Source of the DNA: Oscillospiraceae bacterium
GTDB lineage: Bacteria; Bacillota; Clostridia; UMGS1840
NCBI GenBank assembly: GCA_015068645.1
Contig: SVKD01000005.1
Span: forward strand, 1 to 64,000
Direction of reading: 5' to 3'
DNA length: 64,000 nucleotides
Of this stretch, positions 17,196-60,788 are shown piece by piece. A program made the translations under genes and the position numbers. The stretch's first letter is position 1, and each line of letters starts with the position of its first letter. The notes beneath the pieces were generated by a model. That model saw only the letters and a program-made list of their open reading frames with translations, searched no databases and was not told the DNA's origin.

Positions 17196-17960
17196 TTATA
17201 CGCATATTTTCAATTCTTCTTCATCTTCAAGACCTTTAATAATATGAGTATAGGTATTTATAGTTGTAGAAACATCTTTATAACCTAATAACAAACTGAT
17301 TTTTTTCGGATTGATTCCAGCTTCAAAAAGCGTTGAACAAAATTGATGTCTAAGGGTATGTAATCCCATTCTTTCAATATTCGCATTTTTCAAGATAATA
17401 TAAAATTTTTGGTCGCACTCGTTTTGATTAGCATAACCGCCTTTTTTACTATGAATTAAAAGACTTGTATCATCTTTATAAGTTTTCTTTTTCATTTCCA
17501 AAAATGCTTCAATGGCTTTTTTCGTTTAGTGGAACTATTCTATCTCTGCCACCTTTGGTAGTATGTTGTAATACAGGATGAAAACCCTTTATACGCTTTC
17601 CATCTTTATCTCGGTTAGAAACCCAAACTACATTTTTAGTAATAGATACTATTTTTTGTTCAAATCAACATCTCCATAGGGTAAAGCAATCATTTCGCCA
17701 AGCCTTAGTCCAGTATTCAACATAAACTGAAATACCCATCTTGAAGGATACTTGTAATTTCCGTTTTTGTATTGACTAAAACAGGCTGTTTTGAAGCGTT
17801 CTAATTCTTCCTTTGTAAAAATCCTTTCCTTTGGTTTGCTTTCTCTTTCTGCCTCAAGTTTATTCTTGTTTGGTTTATGGTCTGCTTCAATAACAGGACT
17901 TTTCCTAATTATATCTGTCTGGACTGCGTATAAAAGTAGATTGTATAATATAAAAACCGC
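17196..17960 (-). pseudogene. Tyrosine recombinase/integrase, truncated and twice frameshifted
   Basis: Reading the minus strand across frames gives a contiguous phage/ICE-type integrase: LYNLLLYAVQTDIIRKSPV, then ERIFTKEELERFKTACF, NTGLRLGEMIALPYGDVDL, VVWVSNRDKDGKR, TTKGGRDRIVPLNEK, and finally HTLRHQFCSTLFEAG with LLGYKDVSTTINTYTH. The catalytic Arg (GLRLGE), HxLRH and Tyr (INTYTH) are all recognisable. The frame breaks twice, at A6 runs near 17651 and near 17521, and the N-terminus is missing at a hairpin near 17955. Only the last 101 codons remain one clean frame. The integrase is therefore almost certainly inactive, unless both breaks are sequencing errors at homopolymers. Confidence 0.85.
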
Positions 17961-54525: not shown

Positions 54526-55953
54526 ATGAAAGTTTTATATGCAGCAGCAGAAGCCACTCCTTTTATTAAGGTTGGCGGTTTAGGAGACGTAATGGGCGGT
54601 TTACCCAAAGCTCTTTGTGAGCTTGGTGTAGATGCCAGAGTGATTTTGCCTCTTTATTCCAAAATCAAAGACAAATATATCGACCAGTTGGAATTTATTG
54701 CCGACATTGGAATCCCGCTGGGTTGGAGAATGTGCTATTGCGGAATTTTTAAAGCCGAAATCGGCAAAGTGATATACTATTTTATTGATAACGAACTGTT
54801 TTTCAAACGTGATAACGTGTACGGAGAATTTGACGACGCGGAACGGTTTGCATTTTTTTCCAAAGCGGTTTTAGAAGCGTTACCCCACGTGGATTTCTAT
54901 CCCGACGTGATTAACGCAAACGACTGGCACACCGCAATGGTGCCTCTGTATCTGAACGCCTTTTACAGAAATATCCCCGAATATATGTTTATTAAAACCG
55001 TTCTTTCCATTCACAACATTGAATTTCAGGGACAGTATGACCCGCTGATTATGGGGAACGTGTTCGGCTTGGATGTATCTTACCGTGAGATTATGATGTA
55101 TGATGACTGTCTGAATGTGTTAAAAGCAGGGATTGAATCTGCAAACTTGGTAACCACCGTATCAGAAACCTATGCCAAAGAGATTCTGGATCCCTATTTC
55201 TCCCATAATCTGCATAACATTTTAATTCCCCGTCAGTATAAATTAAAAGGGATTATCAACGGAATTGACACCGAAGTGTTTAACCCCAAAACTGATAAAG
55301 CACTCCCCTATCATTACGACTATTCTTCCATCCGTATGAAATCCATGAATAAGACCGCTCTGCAAAAAGAACTGGGCTTAGAAGTGGATGCGAAGAAACC
55401 CATCATCGGTATGGTTACCCGTTTAACTCCCCAAAAAGGTTTGGATTTAGTACGTGAAGCCATGAGCGAGCTGACCAAGCACGATGTTCAAATTGTGATT
55501 TTAGGAACAGGATATCCCGAATATGAAGAATGCTTCCGCTACTGGGAAAATGTTTGTCACGATAAAGTTCGTGCCATCATCAAATTCTCAGGAGAACTGG
55601 CTTCCAAAATTTATTCGGCGGCAGACTTATTCTTAATGCCCTCTCACGCAGAACCCTGTGGATTGGCTCAGATGATTTCCATGCGCTACGGCACCATTCC
55701 GATTGTGCATACCGTGGGTGGCTTAAAAGACAGTGTAACCCCCTACAATCCCGAAACCAAAGAAGGAAACGGGCTCACCTTCCAGTCTTACAATGCCTGG
55801 GATATGTATGATGCCATTATGAGAGGATTAGAATTATATCACGATAAAAATCATTGGCGGGCGCTTCGTAAGAATGCAATGAATACCGATTTCAGCTGGG
55901 AAAATTCTGCGAAGATTTATAAACAGACCTACGAAGATTTATTGAATCAATAA
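54526..55953 (+). CDS. glgA: Glycogen synthase (ADP-glucose)
   Basis: GT5 enzyme of 475 residues that elongates alpha-1,4-glucan from ADP-glucose. GT-B fold: KVGGLGDVMGGLPKAL with the ADP-glucose-binding Lys at the N-terminus, NANDWHTAMVPL, SIHNIEFQG, GIINGIDTEVFNP, MVTRLTPQKGLDL, and PSHAEPCGLAQMISMRYGTIPIVHTVGGLKD near the C-terminus. Last gene of the synthesis operon, followed by a terminator. Confidence 0.97.
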   Translation: MKVLYAAAEATPFIKVGGLGDVMGGLPKALCELGVDARVILPLYSKIKDKYIDQLEFIADIGIPLGWRMCYCGIFKAEIGKVIYYFIDNELFFKRDNVYGEFDDAERFAFFSKAVLEALPHVDFYPDVINANDWHTAMVPLYLNAFYRNIPEYMFIKTVLSIHNIEFQGQYDPLIMGNVFGLDVSYREIMMYDDCLNVLKAGIESANLVTTVSETYAKEILDPYFSHNLHNILIPRQYKLKGIINGIDTEVFNPKTDKALPYHYDYSSIRMKSMNKTALQKELGLEVDAKKPIIGMVTRLTPQKGLDLVREAMSELTKHDVQIVILGTGYPEYEECFRYWENVCHDKVRAIIKFSGELASKIYSAADLFLMPSHAEPCGLAQMISMRYGTIPIVHTVGGLKDSVTPYNPETKEGNGLTFQSYNAWDMYDAIMRGLELYHDKNHWRALRKNAMNTDFSWENSAKIYKQTYEDLLNQ

Positions 55954-55960
55954 TACAAAC

Positions 55961-55996
55961 AAAAAAGGAGTTGATAAAATCAACTCCTTTTTTAGT
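55961..55996 (+). terminator. Intrinsic terminator after glgA
   Basis: Perfect stem AAAGGAGTTGAT/ATCAACTCCTTT, 3-base loop and T6. Confidence 0.92.
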
Positions 55997-55999
55997 ATA

Positions 56000-56039
56000 A
56001 AATATTTAAAATCGGCAAACTAATCTTTTAAATTGTATG
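56000..56039. repeat. ~40-bp duplicated gene-end sequence, copy A
   Basis: Shares the pattern GGCAAACTAAT, TTTTAAATTGTATG (one or two changes) with 57059-57097. On the minus strand both encode the end of the same peptide (TYNLKD or PYNLKH, then TAG) plus the same downstream bases. Confidence 0.7.
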
Positions 56040-56212: not shown

Positions 56213-56863
56213 TTAGTACATTATTTCTTCTAAAAAATGTGTGTCGGTAAAATTGTTTTTATCACCCTTCCGTGACGGATGATAGTGAAAACGCACTTTT
56301 CTACCTTTGCATTGCTCTATAATATTTAACACTTCATCACGATTATCAAAAAACTCCCTCCCCAAAAACACAATTATTTCAGGGTCTAATATTTCTATTT
56401 GTTTATTGATTTTATCGCTATAAATATCAGCATATTGCAATAAATTTTCAAATTTGCAATTTCTGAATCCGCCTCGTTTATTTATGTTCATCATAGCAGC
56501 ATACTCATACCACTTGGAAGAATCATCAATATCCAACAATTTTACAGTCAATTTTTTTAATCTTCTGGGAATTGCTTTTCTGTATTTTTCTCTGTTTTCC
56601 TTAAGCCAGAATATGGAGTCACCTATCACAAATTCTTTATCAGCCAATTCCTCTATGTTAGATTCTTTTAGTATAAATAATATCCTGCAAGTTGAATTGT
56701 CGTTCAAATAACCATCATTTGTCCAATTGTTCTTAAATTTATCGACGTCAATCACTTTATCTTTATACAGAGGGAATGTCATTTGACAAGAATCATCCCC
56801 CTCTTTAGCATGACATTCCTTCCACTCAGAAAACAGTTGGTTTAGTTCTTTTATTTTAGACAT
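56213..56863 (-). CDS. Uracil-DNA glycosylase superfamily-like protein
   Basis: A 216-residue protein with the outline of a UDG-fold domain: an early strand ILFILKESN where motif A would be, the central ILDPEIIVFLGREF, and VRFHYHPSRKG (HPS at residues 195-197) as motif B. Canonical GQDPYH is absent, so base specificity and even catalysis are uncertain. The AT-rich composition and neighbours suggest an accessory gene; a normal Ung is present elsewhere in the window. AAGGAG lies 11 bases before the ATG. Function inferred only at fold level. Confidence 0.6.
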   Translation of the reverse strand: MSKIKELNQLFSEWKECHAKEGDDSCQMTFPLYKDKVIDVDKFKNNWTNDGYLNDNSTCRILFILKESNIEELADKEFVIGDSIFWLKENREKYRKAIPRRLKKLTVKLLDIDDSSKWYEYAAMMNINKRGGFRNCKFENLLQYADIYSDKINKQIEILDPEIIVFLGREFFDNRDEVLNIIEQCKGRKVRFHYHPSRKGDKNNFTDTHFLEEIMY

Positions 56864-56925: not shown

Positions 56926-56940
56926 TCGTGTCAAGTCAGG
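56926..56940 (+). repeat. 15-bp direct repeat, copy 1
   Basis: TCGTGTCAAGTCAGG, identical to 59563-59577 and in the same orientation. The pair brackets the two-gene nuclease cassette (unit about 2.64 kb). Confidence 0.85.
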
Positions 56941-57058
56941 AGAACAGTGAATAATAGGACCTACTATTTTTTCCTTAATTTTTCACTGGATTTTTCTTAA
57001 ACACTTTTCCTTAGAACCCGCGAGAATACTGAATTTTCTCACATCCGACAGTATATAT

Positions 57059-57107
57059 AAATATCAAAATCAGCAAACTAATGTTTTAAATTGTATGGAC
57101 TTGACAC
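57059..57107. repeat. Duplicated gene-end (copy B) joined to an inverted repeat core
   Basis: 57059-57097 repeats the gene end found at 56000-56039. It is followed without a break by GACTTGACAC (57098-57107), the reverse complement of the core GTGTCAAGTC of the 15-bp direct repeats. This looks like a recombination junction that cut off the rest of the duplicated small gene. Confidence 0.65.
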
Positions 57108-57126
57108 AAGTAAATTTTCATAATTA

Positions 57127-58113
57127 TCAGTTATTTTTTTCTGTATCAATCATTATACCAATTTCAAAATAATTTAATAAAATAATACGTGCTAATGTAA
57201 ATGCGTTTTCTGCATCATAAACCGATAATTTTAAAACATTTTCATTTATATTGTGAGAAGATAGATGACTTCTTATATAACTTAATTCTAGAATTGCATC
57301 GCAAATATTTATTTCAAAATCGCATATTACTTCTCCGTCACTCCACTCACATAATTTTTCAGTTTGGATAACTTTATCTTTGAATGGACGGATAAAACCA
57401 TTTCTTGTTAACCAAGGAATCGTTTCATTGGGATTTATATTTTTTCTGAGCAATCGACTGTACAACTCTTCTTTTACGACTGGGTTCCACTCGTTGTTGA
57501 TTACACTTGGATTGTCAGTATTTGCTTTAATTTGAAGATGTAGTTCTTCTAGAACAGAGTAACAATCTACTACCACATTTGCAATCCGTATTCTATCCGT
57601 CAAAAGATAATCTTTAATAAATGGATCTTCACACGGATGTAATTCCATAGGATGTAAAGCATATATTTCTTTCGCCACATAATACTTACATACAGAGTTT
57701 TCATATGTTTGTGTATCATATACTTTTTGCAGCAGTTTACAAGCAAACAGCAATGCATCATCACCATAAACCACGCCTTTTCTTCCAACTTGAGAAAACA
57801 CATCTATTGGGTCCCTGTCAAAACGTCTAATAATTTCCTCTGTTCTTTCTTCAACATAGCCATTTACAACTGCATGGCAAGACGCAAGAACATCTACAAT
57901 ATGTTTTGCTTTTTCCTTTTTAGATGTTAAAATTTCTATACCATAAATATTTGTTCCTTCAAACCTAGTATTCATAGGTTCACAATAGTTTCCGTAATTA
58001 ACAAATATTATTGCTTCATTTTCAGATAAATCTATTTTTTCAATTTGTTTTAATTTCGAGGTGAAATAACACCATGTATTGTATTGTGAAAGGCTAGACA
58101 ATTCTATCACCAC
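57127..58113 (-). CDS. HEPN-like protein of unknown function, cassette gene 2
   Basis: About 328 residues, no signal peptide or membrane segment. The C-terminal helical part carries an R-x5-H motif (YIRSHLSSH, R281 and H287) followed by an Ala-rich helix (YDAENAFTLARIILLNYF), the arrangement of HEPN-fold ribonucleases. The middle has VVVDCYSVLEELHLQIK and NNEWNPVVKEELYSRLLRKN, patterns I associate with uncharacterised HEPN-type proteins near defence genes, but this is recollection. The start is GTG-GTG with a poor Shine-Dalgarno; a TTG at 58101 is an alternative. It lies 7 bases after the nuclease gene, so the two are one operon. Confidence 0.6.
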   Translation of the reverse strand: MVIELSSLSQYNTWCYFTSKLKQIEKIDLSENEAIIFVNYGNYCEPMNTRFEGTNIYGIEILTSKKEKAKHIVDVLASCHAVVNGYVEERTEEIIRRFDRDPIDVFSQVGRKGVVYGDDALLFACKLLQKVYDTQTYENSVCKYYVAKEIYALHPMELHPCEDPFIKDYLLTDRIRIANVVVDCYSVLEELHLQIKANTDNPSVINNEWNPVVKEELYSRLLRKNINPNETIPWLTRNGFIRPFKDKVIQTEKLCEWSDGEVICDFEINICDAILELSYIRSHLSSHNINENVLKLSVYDAENAFTLARIILLNYFEIGIMIDTEKNN

Positions 58114-58120
58114 CTACTCT

Positions 58121-59500
58121 TCATTTTAAATAATACTTGTTCTTAATAACATCTTTTTGTTTAAAGGCCTCAATTACTTTTTCTTTTATCAAGTTAGTTG
58201 TAATATCTTCCCAATAATTTACATAAATCAAAACTATTCCATTTTCTTCACTCAACTTGAATTTCAAGTCATCTCTTTTTCGTTGTTCTTCAAAATGTTC
58301 TTCTCCGCCAAAATATTCAACTGGCTCGAAATGTTGCTTGCCCTGGTATTCAAATGCTATTTTTTCACCATAGACAAAGACATCATAAGACATTTGTCCA
58401 TTCCTAGTATGTAAAAAATATGGTCTATGCTGATGAACAACTTCATTTTTCGAGAAAACTTTTTTCACGCATTCAAACATTAATTCTTCCGATTTCCAAC
58501 GATTTTCTGTTTTAATATACTCCGTAGGTTGTGTACATTTCTGCAAGTATTGCTGTATATTGGTTAAAATATCTTCGTACTTTTCTGGAAAATAGTCTTT
58601 TTTCTGATAATCAACAAAAGTCCAATATCGTATACAATTATTAGGGATAAACCTTGGATGTAAATTAGAATCTTTTTTAGGATTCGTTTTATGTTCATGG
58701 TAATACTCGCTAAGTTTACATAATAAGAATTCATCAAACTCACTTATATTATTGTATGCCAAAAACTCCGGAAACCTATCTGATTTTTCTAACAAATCCT
58801 GTCTTACTTGAGGTTTGCCATCAACAAACTCATAGGCCATATAAACGTGTCTTGTAGACTTCTCCATATCTGAAATAGCATTCAATATATACTTTGTAAT
58901 ATACGGAGAAGTAGTGCTATCGACTGCATAAGCAACCTTTCCGTTACAAGTAATTTCAAAAATAATGAATGTATATGGTTTTCCTTTCCAAGCTTCAACT
59001 CTATGTTTTAAGTTCAAAAACGACAACTCTTCATTAACTCTATAGAAATTTGTTTTCCAATAATCACGATTACCTTCATTATAGTTTTCTTCCTCAATAA
59101 AATTCAGGTTTTTTATCGGTCTATTTAAATCTGAGGTGAAGAATTTATATTTGTATGGTGCGTAAGGTGCATATTCCCCAAAAAGTTGTTTTCTCAATTT
59201 AGTAGCATTTATTTTGAAAAGTTCATTATAAGTTAGTTCTTCAATTATGAATATGTGTCCTATTAATGTATTAAATACCCCGCAATCATTTTCAAGATAA
59301 TAATTTATAGTGTTTTCTGTTAATTCTCTGGTTTTCTTTATGCCAAAATAAACGATAAAGCTATCTTCTATCACATACACTTTTTCATTTTCACTTATAT
59401 CGTGACACACAAAAGTATAAGTGTCAAAAAGTCTTTCAAACACTTCTGCTGAACTTTTATAAAAGTTTTTTAAATTATAATAAAACTCTTTAAGGTTCAT
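58121..59500 (-). CDS. PD-(D/E)XK nuclease-domain protein, cassette gene 1
   Basis: A 459-residue protein. The first ~330 residues are unassigned, rich in aromatic and acidic residues. The C-terminal ~120 form a nuclease domain of the PD-(D/E)XK superfamily: WKSEELMFECVKKVF with a conserved Glu, then SYDVFV (Asp373), FEYQGKQHFEPVEYFGG (Glu384-x-Gln386) and RDDLKFKLSEENGIVLIYVNY. The D...ExQ spacing fits the catalytic core, with Gln in the place of Lys as in some Vsr-like groups. AGAGGT lies eight bases before the ATG. Probably a DNA-targeting effector; whether it is a defence protein is inferred from context. Confidence 0.75.
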   Translation of the reverse strand: MNLKEFYYNLKNFYKSSAEVFERLFDTYTFVCHDISENEKVYVIEDSFIVYFGIKKTRELTENTINYYLENDCGVFNTLIGHIFIIEELTYNELFKINATKLRKQLFGEYAPYAPYKYKFFTSDLNRPIKNLNFIEEENYNEGNRDYWKTNFYRVNEELSFLNLKHRVEAWKGKPYTFIIFEITCNGKVAYAVDSTTSPYITKYILNAISDMEKSTRHVYMAYEFVDGKPQVRQDLLEKSDRFPEFLAYNNISEFDEFLLCKLSEYYHEHKTNPKKDSNLHPRFIPNNCIRYWTFVDYQKKDYFPEKYEDILTNIQQYLQKCTQPTEYIKTENRWKSEELMFECVKKVFSKNEVVHQHRPYFLHTRNGQMSYDVFVYGEKIAFEYQGKQHFEPVEYFGGEEHFEEQRKRDDLKFKLSEENGIVLIYVNYWEDITTNLIKEKVIEAFKQKDVIKNKYYLK

Positions 59501-59562
59501 ATTATTACCTCTTAATTATACTTTTTTCAACACAACTCTCTATCATTCGACACAATTCTTAC

Positions 59563-59577
59563 TCGTGTCAAGTCAGG
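59563..59577 (+). repeat. 15-bp direct repeat, copy 2
   Basis: TCGTGTCAAGTCAGG, exact match to 56926-56940. Confidence 0.85.
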
Positions 59578-59598: not shown

Positions 59599-59822
59599 CA
59601 CTTTTTCAAAAAAACGAAAATGTCCCAAAAATTCTCAACTAAATTCTAATTTTTATTGTACTTATTATAACATATAAAAATAGAAATAACAAGTCTTTTA
59701 GTTTCTTTTGGTTCAAATTCGCGTCAGTTTCAGACTGCGGATTCCATTTTCTTTCATTTGTTTGAATTTCTTTGGTTTTTTTTGTTTTGTTTTGATTTTT
59801 TTGATTTTTTTTGGTTTTCCTA

Positions 59823-59851
59823 TTGCATTTTGAAAATGAGTGTGCTATAAT
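59823..59851 (+). promoter_or_regulatory. Sigma-A-type promoter for the aldolase gene
   Basis: TTGCAT, 17 bases, TATAAT, preceded by a long T-rich tract that may act as an UP element. Confidence 0.75.
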
Positions 59852-59948: not shown

Positions 59949-60788
59949 ATGCTGGTAACCTTAGAAGAAATCTTAAAAGACGCCGAACAAAAGAAATACG
60001 GTGTTGGTTTGTTCAACATGTTGAACTTAGAAATGGCAAGAGGTATCATTGATGCTGCTGAAGAAGAACGCTCCCCCATTATTCTGGGTGTTGCGGAAGT
60101 TCATCTGCCTGTAATCCCCTTTGATTACGCTTGTCATATCATGAATAAAATCGCAAAAGAAGCAACCGTTCCCGTTTGCTTACATTTTGACCACGGTACC
60201 AACTACAAAAAAATCTTAACTGCTATGAAAGGCGGCTTCACTTCCGTAATGTATGACGGTAGTGCTCTGCCCTACGAAGAAAACATTGCAAACACCAAAG
60301 AAATTTCCAAAATTGCGCACGCTTTAGGCGTAAGCGTGGAAGCAGAACTCGGTCATGTTGGCGGTGCAGAAGGCGGCGCTGATGACGGTCACGAAGCAAT
60401 GTATACCAATGTGGATCAGGTAAACGATTTTATCCGCCGTGCAGACATTGATGCACTGGCTGTTGCAATCGGTACCGCTCACGGTCAGTACAAAGTAAAA
60501 CCGAAGCTGGATATCGGCAGATTAAAAGAAATCTATGATATTGCTGAAAAACCGTTGGTATTACACGGCGGTTCCGGCTTAAGCGATGACGACTTCAGAA
60601 ACACCATCAAAAACGGTATCAGAAAAGTAAATATCTGTACCGAAATGTGTATGGCTGCACACAGAGCATACACCTTCGCATTCAACGAAAACACCAACTT
60701 TGAAATCGCTCTGCAGGTTGCAAAAAAATCCGTTCAGGAAATTGTAAGAGAAAAAATGATTCTCTTCGGTTCCAGCGGCAAAGCGTAA
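59949..60788 (+). CDS. Class II fructose-bisphosphate aldolase family protein
   Basis: Zn-dependent aldolase of 279 residues in the FbaA/GatY/KbaY family. Catalytic and metal residues: CLHFDHGTNY with Asp-His, SVMYDGSALPYEENI, VSVEAELGHVGGAE, AVAIGTAHGQYK with a zinc His, and VLHGGSGLSDDDF with another. It most likely cleaves fructose-1,6-bisphosphate in glycolysis; tagatose-bisphosphate cannot be excluded from motifs alone. Strong Shine-Dalgarno (TAGGAG), own promoter and terminator. Confidence 0.92.
   Translation: MLVTLEEILKDAEQKKYGVGLFNMLNLEMARGIIDAAEEERSPIILGVAEVHLPVIPFDYACHIMNKIAKEATVPVCLHFDHGTNYKKILTAMKGGFTSVMYDGSALPYEENIANTKEISKIAHALGVSVEAELGHVGGAEGGADDGHEAMYTNVDQVNDFIRRADIDALAVAIGTAHGQYKVKPKLDIGRLKEIYDIAEKPLVLHGGSGLSDDDFRNTIKNGIRKVNICTEMCMAAHRAYTFAFNENTNFEIALQVAKKSVQEIVREKMILFGSSGKA

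Follow-up and report, generated by a model that had tools for sequence, protein, structure and literature searches.

A nuclease and HEPN-like gene pair as probable cargo of an integron-like cassette family in Clostridia

The best reading of a pair of AT-rich genes lying between glgA and fba in an Oscillospiraceae genome (assembly GCA_015068645.1), which encode a PD-(D/E)XK-type nuclease and a predicted HEPN-like protein, is that they are accessory cargo of an integron-like family of gene cassettes. The cassettes form a widespread mobile family in Clostridia, with common boundaries, a rule of orientation, arrays and transfer between families. The window, as the whole stretch of DNA analysed is called here, comprises the first 64,000 nucleotides of contig SVKD01000005.1. 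Its positions 56926-59577 are read as one gene cassette, followed by a second, both being accessory DNA at the glgA-fba site; this explanation is probable when the roles proposed below for the proteins are included, and it can be held with clearly more confidence when the cassettes are considered without protein function.

Two units in tandem at the glgA-fba site

Transcription of the segment follows the minus strand, from the 459-aa gene to the 328-aa gene, separated by a gap of 7 bases, and then to the 216-aa gene (Table 1), with a GC content of ~27-33% over the three genes in comparison with 38-46% in the flanking ones. The 15-bp core CCTGACTTGACACGA precedes the first gene and, again, the third, and the 3' repeat begins as TTACTTGTGTCAAGTC, 13 bases past the stop of the second gene. 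Since the order core, gene or genes, and repeat is seen twice, two units stand in tandem at this site. The similarity of the 216-aa protein to uracil-DNA glycosylases is weak and falls below the cut-off.

Table 1. Positions of the features at the glgA-fba site of the window and of related features at other loci
Feature	Position	Strand	Remarks
First gene	58121..59500	-	459 aa; N-terminal part ~1-330, nuclease domain ~330-457
Second gene	57127..58113	-	328 aa, GTG start; predicted HEPN-like, R281-x5-H287, E189/E190
Third gene, cargo of the next cassette	56213..56863	-	216 aa
15-bp core CCTGACTTGACACGA	59563..59577	-	5' boundary of the nuclease/HEPN-like cassette
Opposed boxes TTGACAC...GTGTCGAA	59546..59571	-	Left end of the cassette (TTGACACGAGTAAGAATTGTGTCGAA)
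Structured 3' repeat, ~190 bp	56926..57113	-	Core at its end
15-bp core CCTGACTTGACACGA	56926..56940	-	3' boundary, common to both neighbouring cassettes
Shortened copy of the 3' repeat	55996..56039	-	Model positions 17-56; closes the second cassette, beside the glgA terminator
glgA	54526-55953	+	Flanking gene
fba	59949-60788	+	Flanking gene
Near-apex inserts in repeat copies	L029:8515-8575; L181:313-449; L189:8425-8494; others
DUF4379 cargo	L029:6480-8609 (G000:C10:72479-74608); L186:7218-9104; L187:8315-8770		With a REase-like segment in L029

A preliminary description of this DNA had already pointed to two genes with a 7-base gap, to their AT-richness, to an exact 15-bp direct repeat around them and to their insertion between housekeeping operons. 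The coordinates of the open reading frames, the GC values and the identity of the neighbours as glgA and fba bear all of this out, with both copies of the direct repeat lying just outside the interval that it had delimited; the ~190-bp repeat and the second cassette were both missing from it. Its reading of the segment as inserted DNA agrees with a sister species (G005) that lacks the segment: its glgA and fba are separated by 265 bp of ordinary intergenic DNA, with neither core nor insert. Genomes G006 and G008 have different genes at this position, and G007 keeps a remnant of the core. Because the empty G005 site is devoid of the core, the first insertion between glgA and fba would not have taken place at a pre-existing core, as the site now reads.

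Upstream of fba, a T-rich stretch that resembles a repeat (59740-59830) is conserved throughout the sister species, and short matches to it occur at other places in the genomes. Elsewhere in the window lies a degraded integrase gene (17241-17819, minus strand) with a phage-integrase domain and five internal stops.

A family of cassettes bounded by a core and a structured repeat

In the same genome, the 3' repeat is also found after a gene for an OLD-like ATPase/TOPRIM protein and after a DUF4379/REase-like gene, and it is present in the sister species as well. A survey of 391 sampled Clostridia genomes with the copy from locus L003 as query (E <= 0.001) matched the repeat in 45 of them. Matches were long in 33 genomes, belonging to 22 genera and 11 families (best E 3e-19 or better), and the remaining 12 gave only short partial matches that may be due to chance. 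Every one of the 41 classified copies, from 28 loci analysed, was located just downstream of an open reading frame on the same strand, at a median distance of 29 bp. At several loci the cassettes form arrays of two or three, in which neighbours share exactly one core. Moreover, the same cassette occurs in different contexts and in different families, as observed for the genome pairs G175/G176 (98% identity), G007/G157 (94%) and G287/G026 (88%); several of the copies are internal to contigs of more than 100 kb, which makes mis-binning an unlikely explanation for sharing across families.

The cargo of the family comprises S-layer, RhuM, glutaminase, beta-lactamase-fold, phosphatase, esterase, LysR and ion-channel genes, together with nucleases, OLD-like proteins and lipoproteins, most of it unrelated to defence, and RhuM itself is listed in PADLOC as a candidate only. 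Such a mixed list rules out a cargo restricted to defence. Three cassettes, each from a different genome, carry a DUF4379 zinc-finger protein (Table 1). Spread by phages or plasmids was also discarded as an explanation, the repeat being absent from both the phage and the plasmid collections searched; a single match to the core in a viral contig falls within a gene of replication type and appears fortuitous.

The core marks the boundaries of these units. Its exact 15-mer has five copies in the 1.76-Mb genome, all of them at cassette ends, and a version of 14 bases, allowing up to 2 mismatches, would be expected 0.21 times in the window. When the cassette with the DUF4379/REase-like gene is compared with the same host locus in G006, homology stops exactly at the end of CCTGACTTGACACGA, and the homology of cassettes shared between genomes likewise ends at the core. 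Boxes of the form TGTYRAA follow the cores at 0.90 per 60 bases, against 0.037 in shuffled sequences (~25-fold), an enrichment that yields the opposed TTGACAC...GTGTCGAA pair. A hybrid promoter at the core, with TTGACA as the -35 element, was considered and rejected, as its score (3.29 matching bases) was no better than that of control windows (3.09).

With regard to structure, the outer arms of the window copy (57098-57113 and 56926-56938) are complementary, and in 23 of the 27 repeat copies the arms are complementary in at least 9 of 10 bases at the best offset, reading TTGTGTCAAGTC and GACTTGACAC in the copies listed. Two pairs of the inner hairpin carry compensatory changes, which lend modest support to the fold, and the window copy, folded as a single strand, scores only mildly better than shuffled sequences (z -2.1 on the gene strand and -1.3 on the other). 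Many copies contain an extra insert of ~60-145 bp at the same near-apex point, which recalls the variable terminal structure of attC sites.

As the main alternative to site-specific recombination, the cassettes would have entered T-rich sites as transposon-like units, with homologous exchange through their ~190-bp repeats at a later stage; in another version, the repeat would be a conserved 3' RNA element that travels with the genes. An origin of this kind would suit the left flanks, T-rich in many hosts (TTTTTA.TCCWG), and the lack of a core at the empty G005 site, and a hairpin with compensatory pairs is what an RNA element might have. It is nevertheless rather unlikely, given the single core between adjacent cassettes, the end of homology at the core both in shared cassettes and at host sites, the left ends that have a core but no repeat, and the lack of a credible Rfam match in this region of the window. 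A simple MITE was discarded, failing on those same left ends and on the shared cores. Recombination at the core is preferred here.

The encoded proteins and the question of defence

Searches against Pfam, NCBIfam and PADLOC gave no match above cut-off for the first protein. On the other hand, its residues 330-457 matched six PHROG families in a profile search (1.8e-23 to 1.6e-8), of which three are named as HNH, homing or intron-encoded nucleases (7e-12 to 1.6e-8) and those reaching 1.8e-23 are listed as of unknown function; the phage proteins matched include ones annotated as 'homing endonuclease' and 'homing endonuclease EDxHD'. An alignment of four homologues showed that residues E338, D373, E384, Q386, H390 and D410 are invariant, and an AlphaFold2 model built from four sequences placed the helix-strands-helix-strand-helix elements of the nuclease core in the correct order with moderate confidence (pLDDT ~74), the N-terminal part not being resolved. 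The only sensible neighbour found by Foldseek in the PDB was the Vsr endonuclease 1vsr (probability 0.90, a weak E of 0.2, and a TM of 0.50 on the target), whereas a search with the whole model was swamped by the poorly modelled N-terminal part. Taken together, the PHROG matches, the invariant residues, the modelled core and the 1vsr neighbour make a PD-(D/E)XK-type nuclease well supported for the C-terminal domain, for which EDxHD/Vsr-like is the best subtype label. The preliminary description had therefore been right about both the class of nuclease and the positions of its D373/E384/Q386 core.

Compared with the Vsr/EDxHD homing branch, the first protein has the same order of core elements in its model, the E...D...ExQ..H...D invariants and the homing matches in PHROG, but it differs in bearing a ~330-residue N-terminal part and in being encoded outside any intron. 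This N-terminal part is conserved and common only to a few chromosomally encoded proteins of Clostridia, the phage matches starting only at residue ~257-336. One homologue of 608 aa (L146:575-2401) has its N-terminal part apparently doubled before the nuclease domain, in the stretches '..IFEDKYVVFAG..' and '..VFEETLVIYIG..'. Another reading would be selfish DNA, with the first gene encoding an endonuclease of the homing type that stands on its own and the second gene as an unrelated passenger. The PHROG matches to homing endonucleases and intron-encoded nucleases would fit, and so would the phage records annotated as homing endonuclease, one of them as EDxHD, yet an N-terminal part foreign to phage proteins and recurrent in bacterial chromosomes, together with the lack of any visible cleaved insertion site or intron, makes this explanation improbable.

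The second protein had no match in the Pfam, NCBIfam, PADLOC or PHROG profiles, nor in the PDB by sequence. None of the other genomes sampled, which comprised 340 Clostridia and 398 Bacillota from two draws that overlap, contained a relative, and viral contigs gave no further homologues. Relatives were found on three alphaproteobacterial plasmids. In an alignment with the Roseovarius and Ensifer proteins (three sequences, 22% identity), R281, H287, E189 and E190 are invariant, whereas the Bradyrhizobium copy looks frame-shifted and has lost the His of the motif. The criteria applied were an R-x4-6-H motif at the end of helix 3, an acidic residue in helix 2 and a four-helix bundle, following a published description of HEPN domains (PMC3710099). 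The predicted helices 174-197 (bearing E189/E190), 270-284 (bearing R281) and 301-314 fit this layout, in a model whose pLDDT of only 39 makes it unusable. In addition, the Roseovarius gene shares an 8-base overlap with a gene for an MNT nucleotidyltransferase (PF01909, 1.4e-12). On that plasmid, pTHAF8_d (L019:3779-5165), the nucleotidyltransferase gene lies 3' of the homologue, the reverse of the usual MNT-first order.

The second protein is quite likely to be HEPN-like, as predicted from these features. The R-x5-H motif announced in the preliminary description is where it had been placed and proved invariant in the aligned homologues; the HEPN assignment built on it gains from the Glu pair and the MNT-coupled homologue, although no profile or reliable model confirms it. 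With HEPN ribonucleases and HEPN-MNT toxins it would share the motif at a predicted helix end and the Glu pair in an earlier helix, and it departs from them in having no profile similarity, a long insert between putative helices 2 and 3 and an extra N-terminal part. MNT proteins are a known antitoxin type of HEPN toxins (PMC7641770), and the overlap of the Roseovarius gene with one of them would favour a toxin-antitoxin or addiction pair, in which a HEPN-like toxin keeps the cassette in the genome. The window cassette has no MNT or other antitoxin-like gene, and as an antitoxin a nuclease of 459 aa would be unusual, so that such a pair is also improbable.

Concerning the association between the two genes, the closest homologue of the first (L001, 73% identity) is followed by a DUF2513 gene, and a remnant at L003 (84% over the last 58 residues) precedes an unrelated 201-aa gene, behind which the same 3' repeat lies; the remaining homologues have other neighbours again. 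Homologues of the second gene have the MNT gene as partner, or XRE and ImmA/IrrE-like genes nearby. Within this small sample, for both genes, the partner differed in every homologue examined and the two were never found together, an outcome that the preliminary description had listed among those refuting its proposal.

A compact abortive-infection or DNA-targeting module had been proposed in the preliminary description. As a dedicated two-component anti-phage system acting by abortive infection, its nuclease would recognise or cut foreign DNA, the HEPN RNase would stop the infected cell and the cassette would be only the vehicle. Its short intergenic gap and single orientation, the combination of a nuclease with a HEPN-like motif, the accessory character of the insertion and the OLD-like and REase-like proteins carried by cassettes of the same genome speak in favour of such a system. 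It is, on the other hand, unlikely in view of the changing partners (DUF2513 in L001, the 201-aa gene in L003, MNT in Roseovarius), of the absence of the second gene from all other Bacillota genomes sampled, of the mostly non-defence cargo of the family and of PADLOC-DB 2.0.0 (2023; later systems lie outside its coverage), which gave no match for any of the three cassette proteins. As the cargo is so diverse, the cassette context shows mobility and presence in a cassette is no evidence for defence. An action against phage or other foreign or incoming DNA is tentatively put forward as the likeliest role of the pair acting as cassette cargo.

Proposed recombination and comparison with known systems

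Site-specific recombination at the core is deduced from the boundaries described above. According to the proposed mechanism, cassettes would recombine at the 15-bp core, next to the opposed TTGACAC/GTGTYRAA boxes, by means of an enzyme acting in trans. As for the cargo, the first protein would be a Vsr/PD-(D/E)XK-type DNA nuclease with a recognition part of its own, the second a HEPN-type RNase acting through cell arrest or RNA degradation, and both would probably act together on nucleic acids. No tyrosine recombinase was found among the open reading frames of the 28 array loci, the core was absent from the surroundings of the integrase loci examined, and none of the 391 genomes has an integron integrase above the curated NCBI cut-off (TIGR02249). 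Neither circular forms nor reshuffled cassettes were observed. A canonical integron was ruled out by the lack of both an IntI above cut-off and attC-type boxes.

A broader proposal, for which the case is nearly balanced, is that Clostridia have a gene-cassette system independent of integrons, in which single genes or small operons, bearing GTGTYRAA boxes at the 5' end and a folded 3' site of ~190 bp, would be exchanged between families by an undescribed recombinase at the 15-bp core, the nuclease/HEPN-like pair being one cargo among others and possibly a new defence module. No description of the family was found in the open literature searched, an absence that is no proof of novelty. With long matches in ~8% of the sampled Clostridia and cassettes up to 98% identical in different families, it would represent, if true, an unrecognised route of gene exchange. 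Through the repeat, the cargo can easily be mined, new nucleases and candidate defence genes included, and the search for the recombinase becomes directly testable.

Short direct repeats also flank the insertions of SCC-type elements and ICEs at their att sites; the cassettes described here differ in having no recombinase in the element, in occupying many unrelated sites and in carrying one gene or a small operon per unit. The resemblance to integron cassettes and CALIN goes further, as it covers a gene followed by a folded 3' site, fixed orientation, arrays, mixed cargo and transfer between lineages. CALIN are clusters of attC sites without an integron integrase, and the outer boxes of attC are RYYYAAC and GTTRRRY, whereas the Clostridia family, also with no IntI above the cut-off, has the arms TTGTGTCAAGTC and GACTTGACAC in their place and cassettes dispersed at many loci. 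Integrons are reported to be extremely rare in Firmicutes, with one complete integron and a few CALIN when 22,301 chromosomes and 21,520 plasmids were surveyed (PMC9024848). According to the same work, attC sites vary strongly in sequence (PMC9024848), in contrast with the repeat of the Clostridia cassettes, whose sequence is conserved between families.
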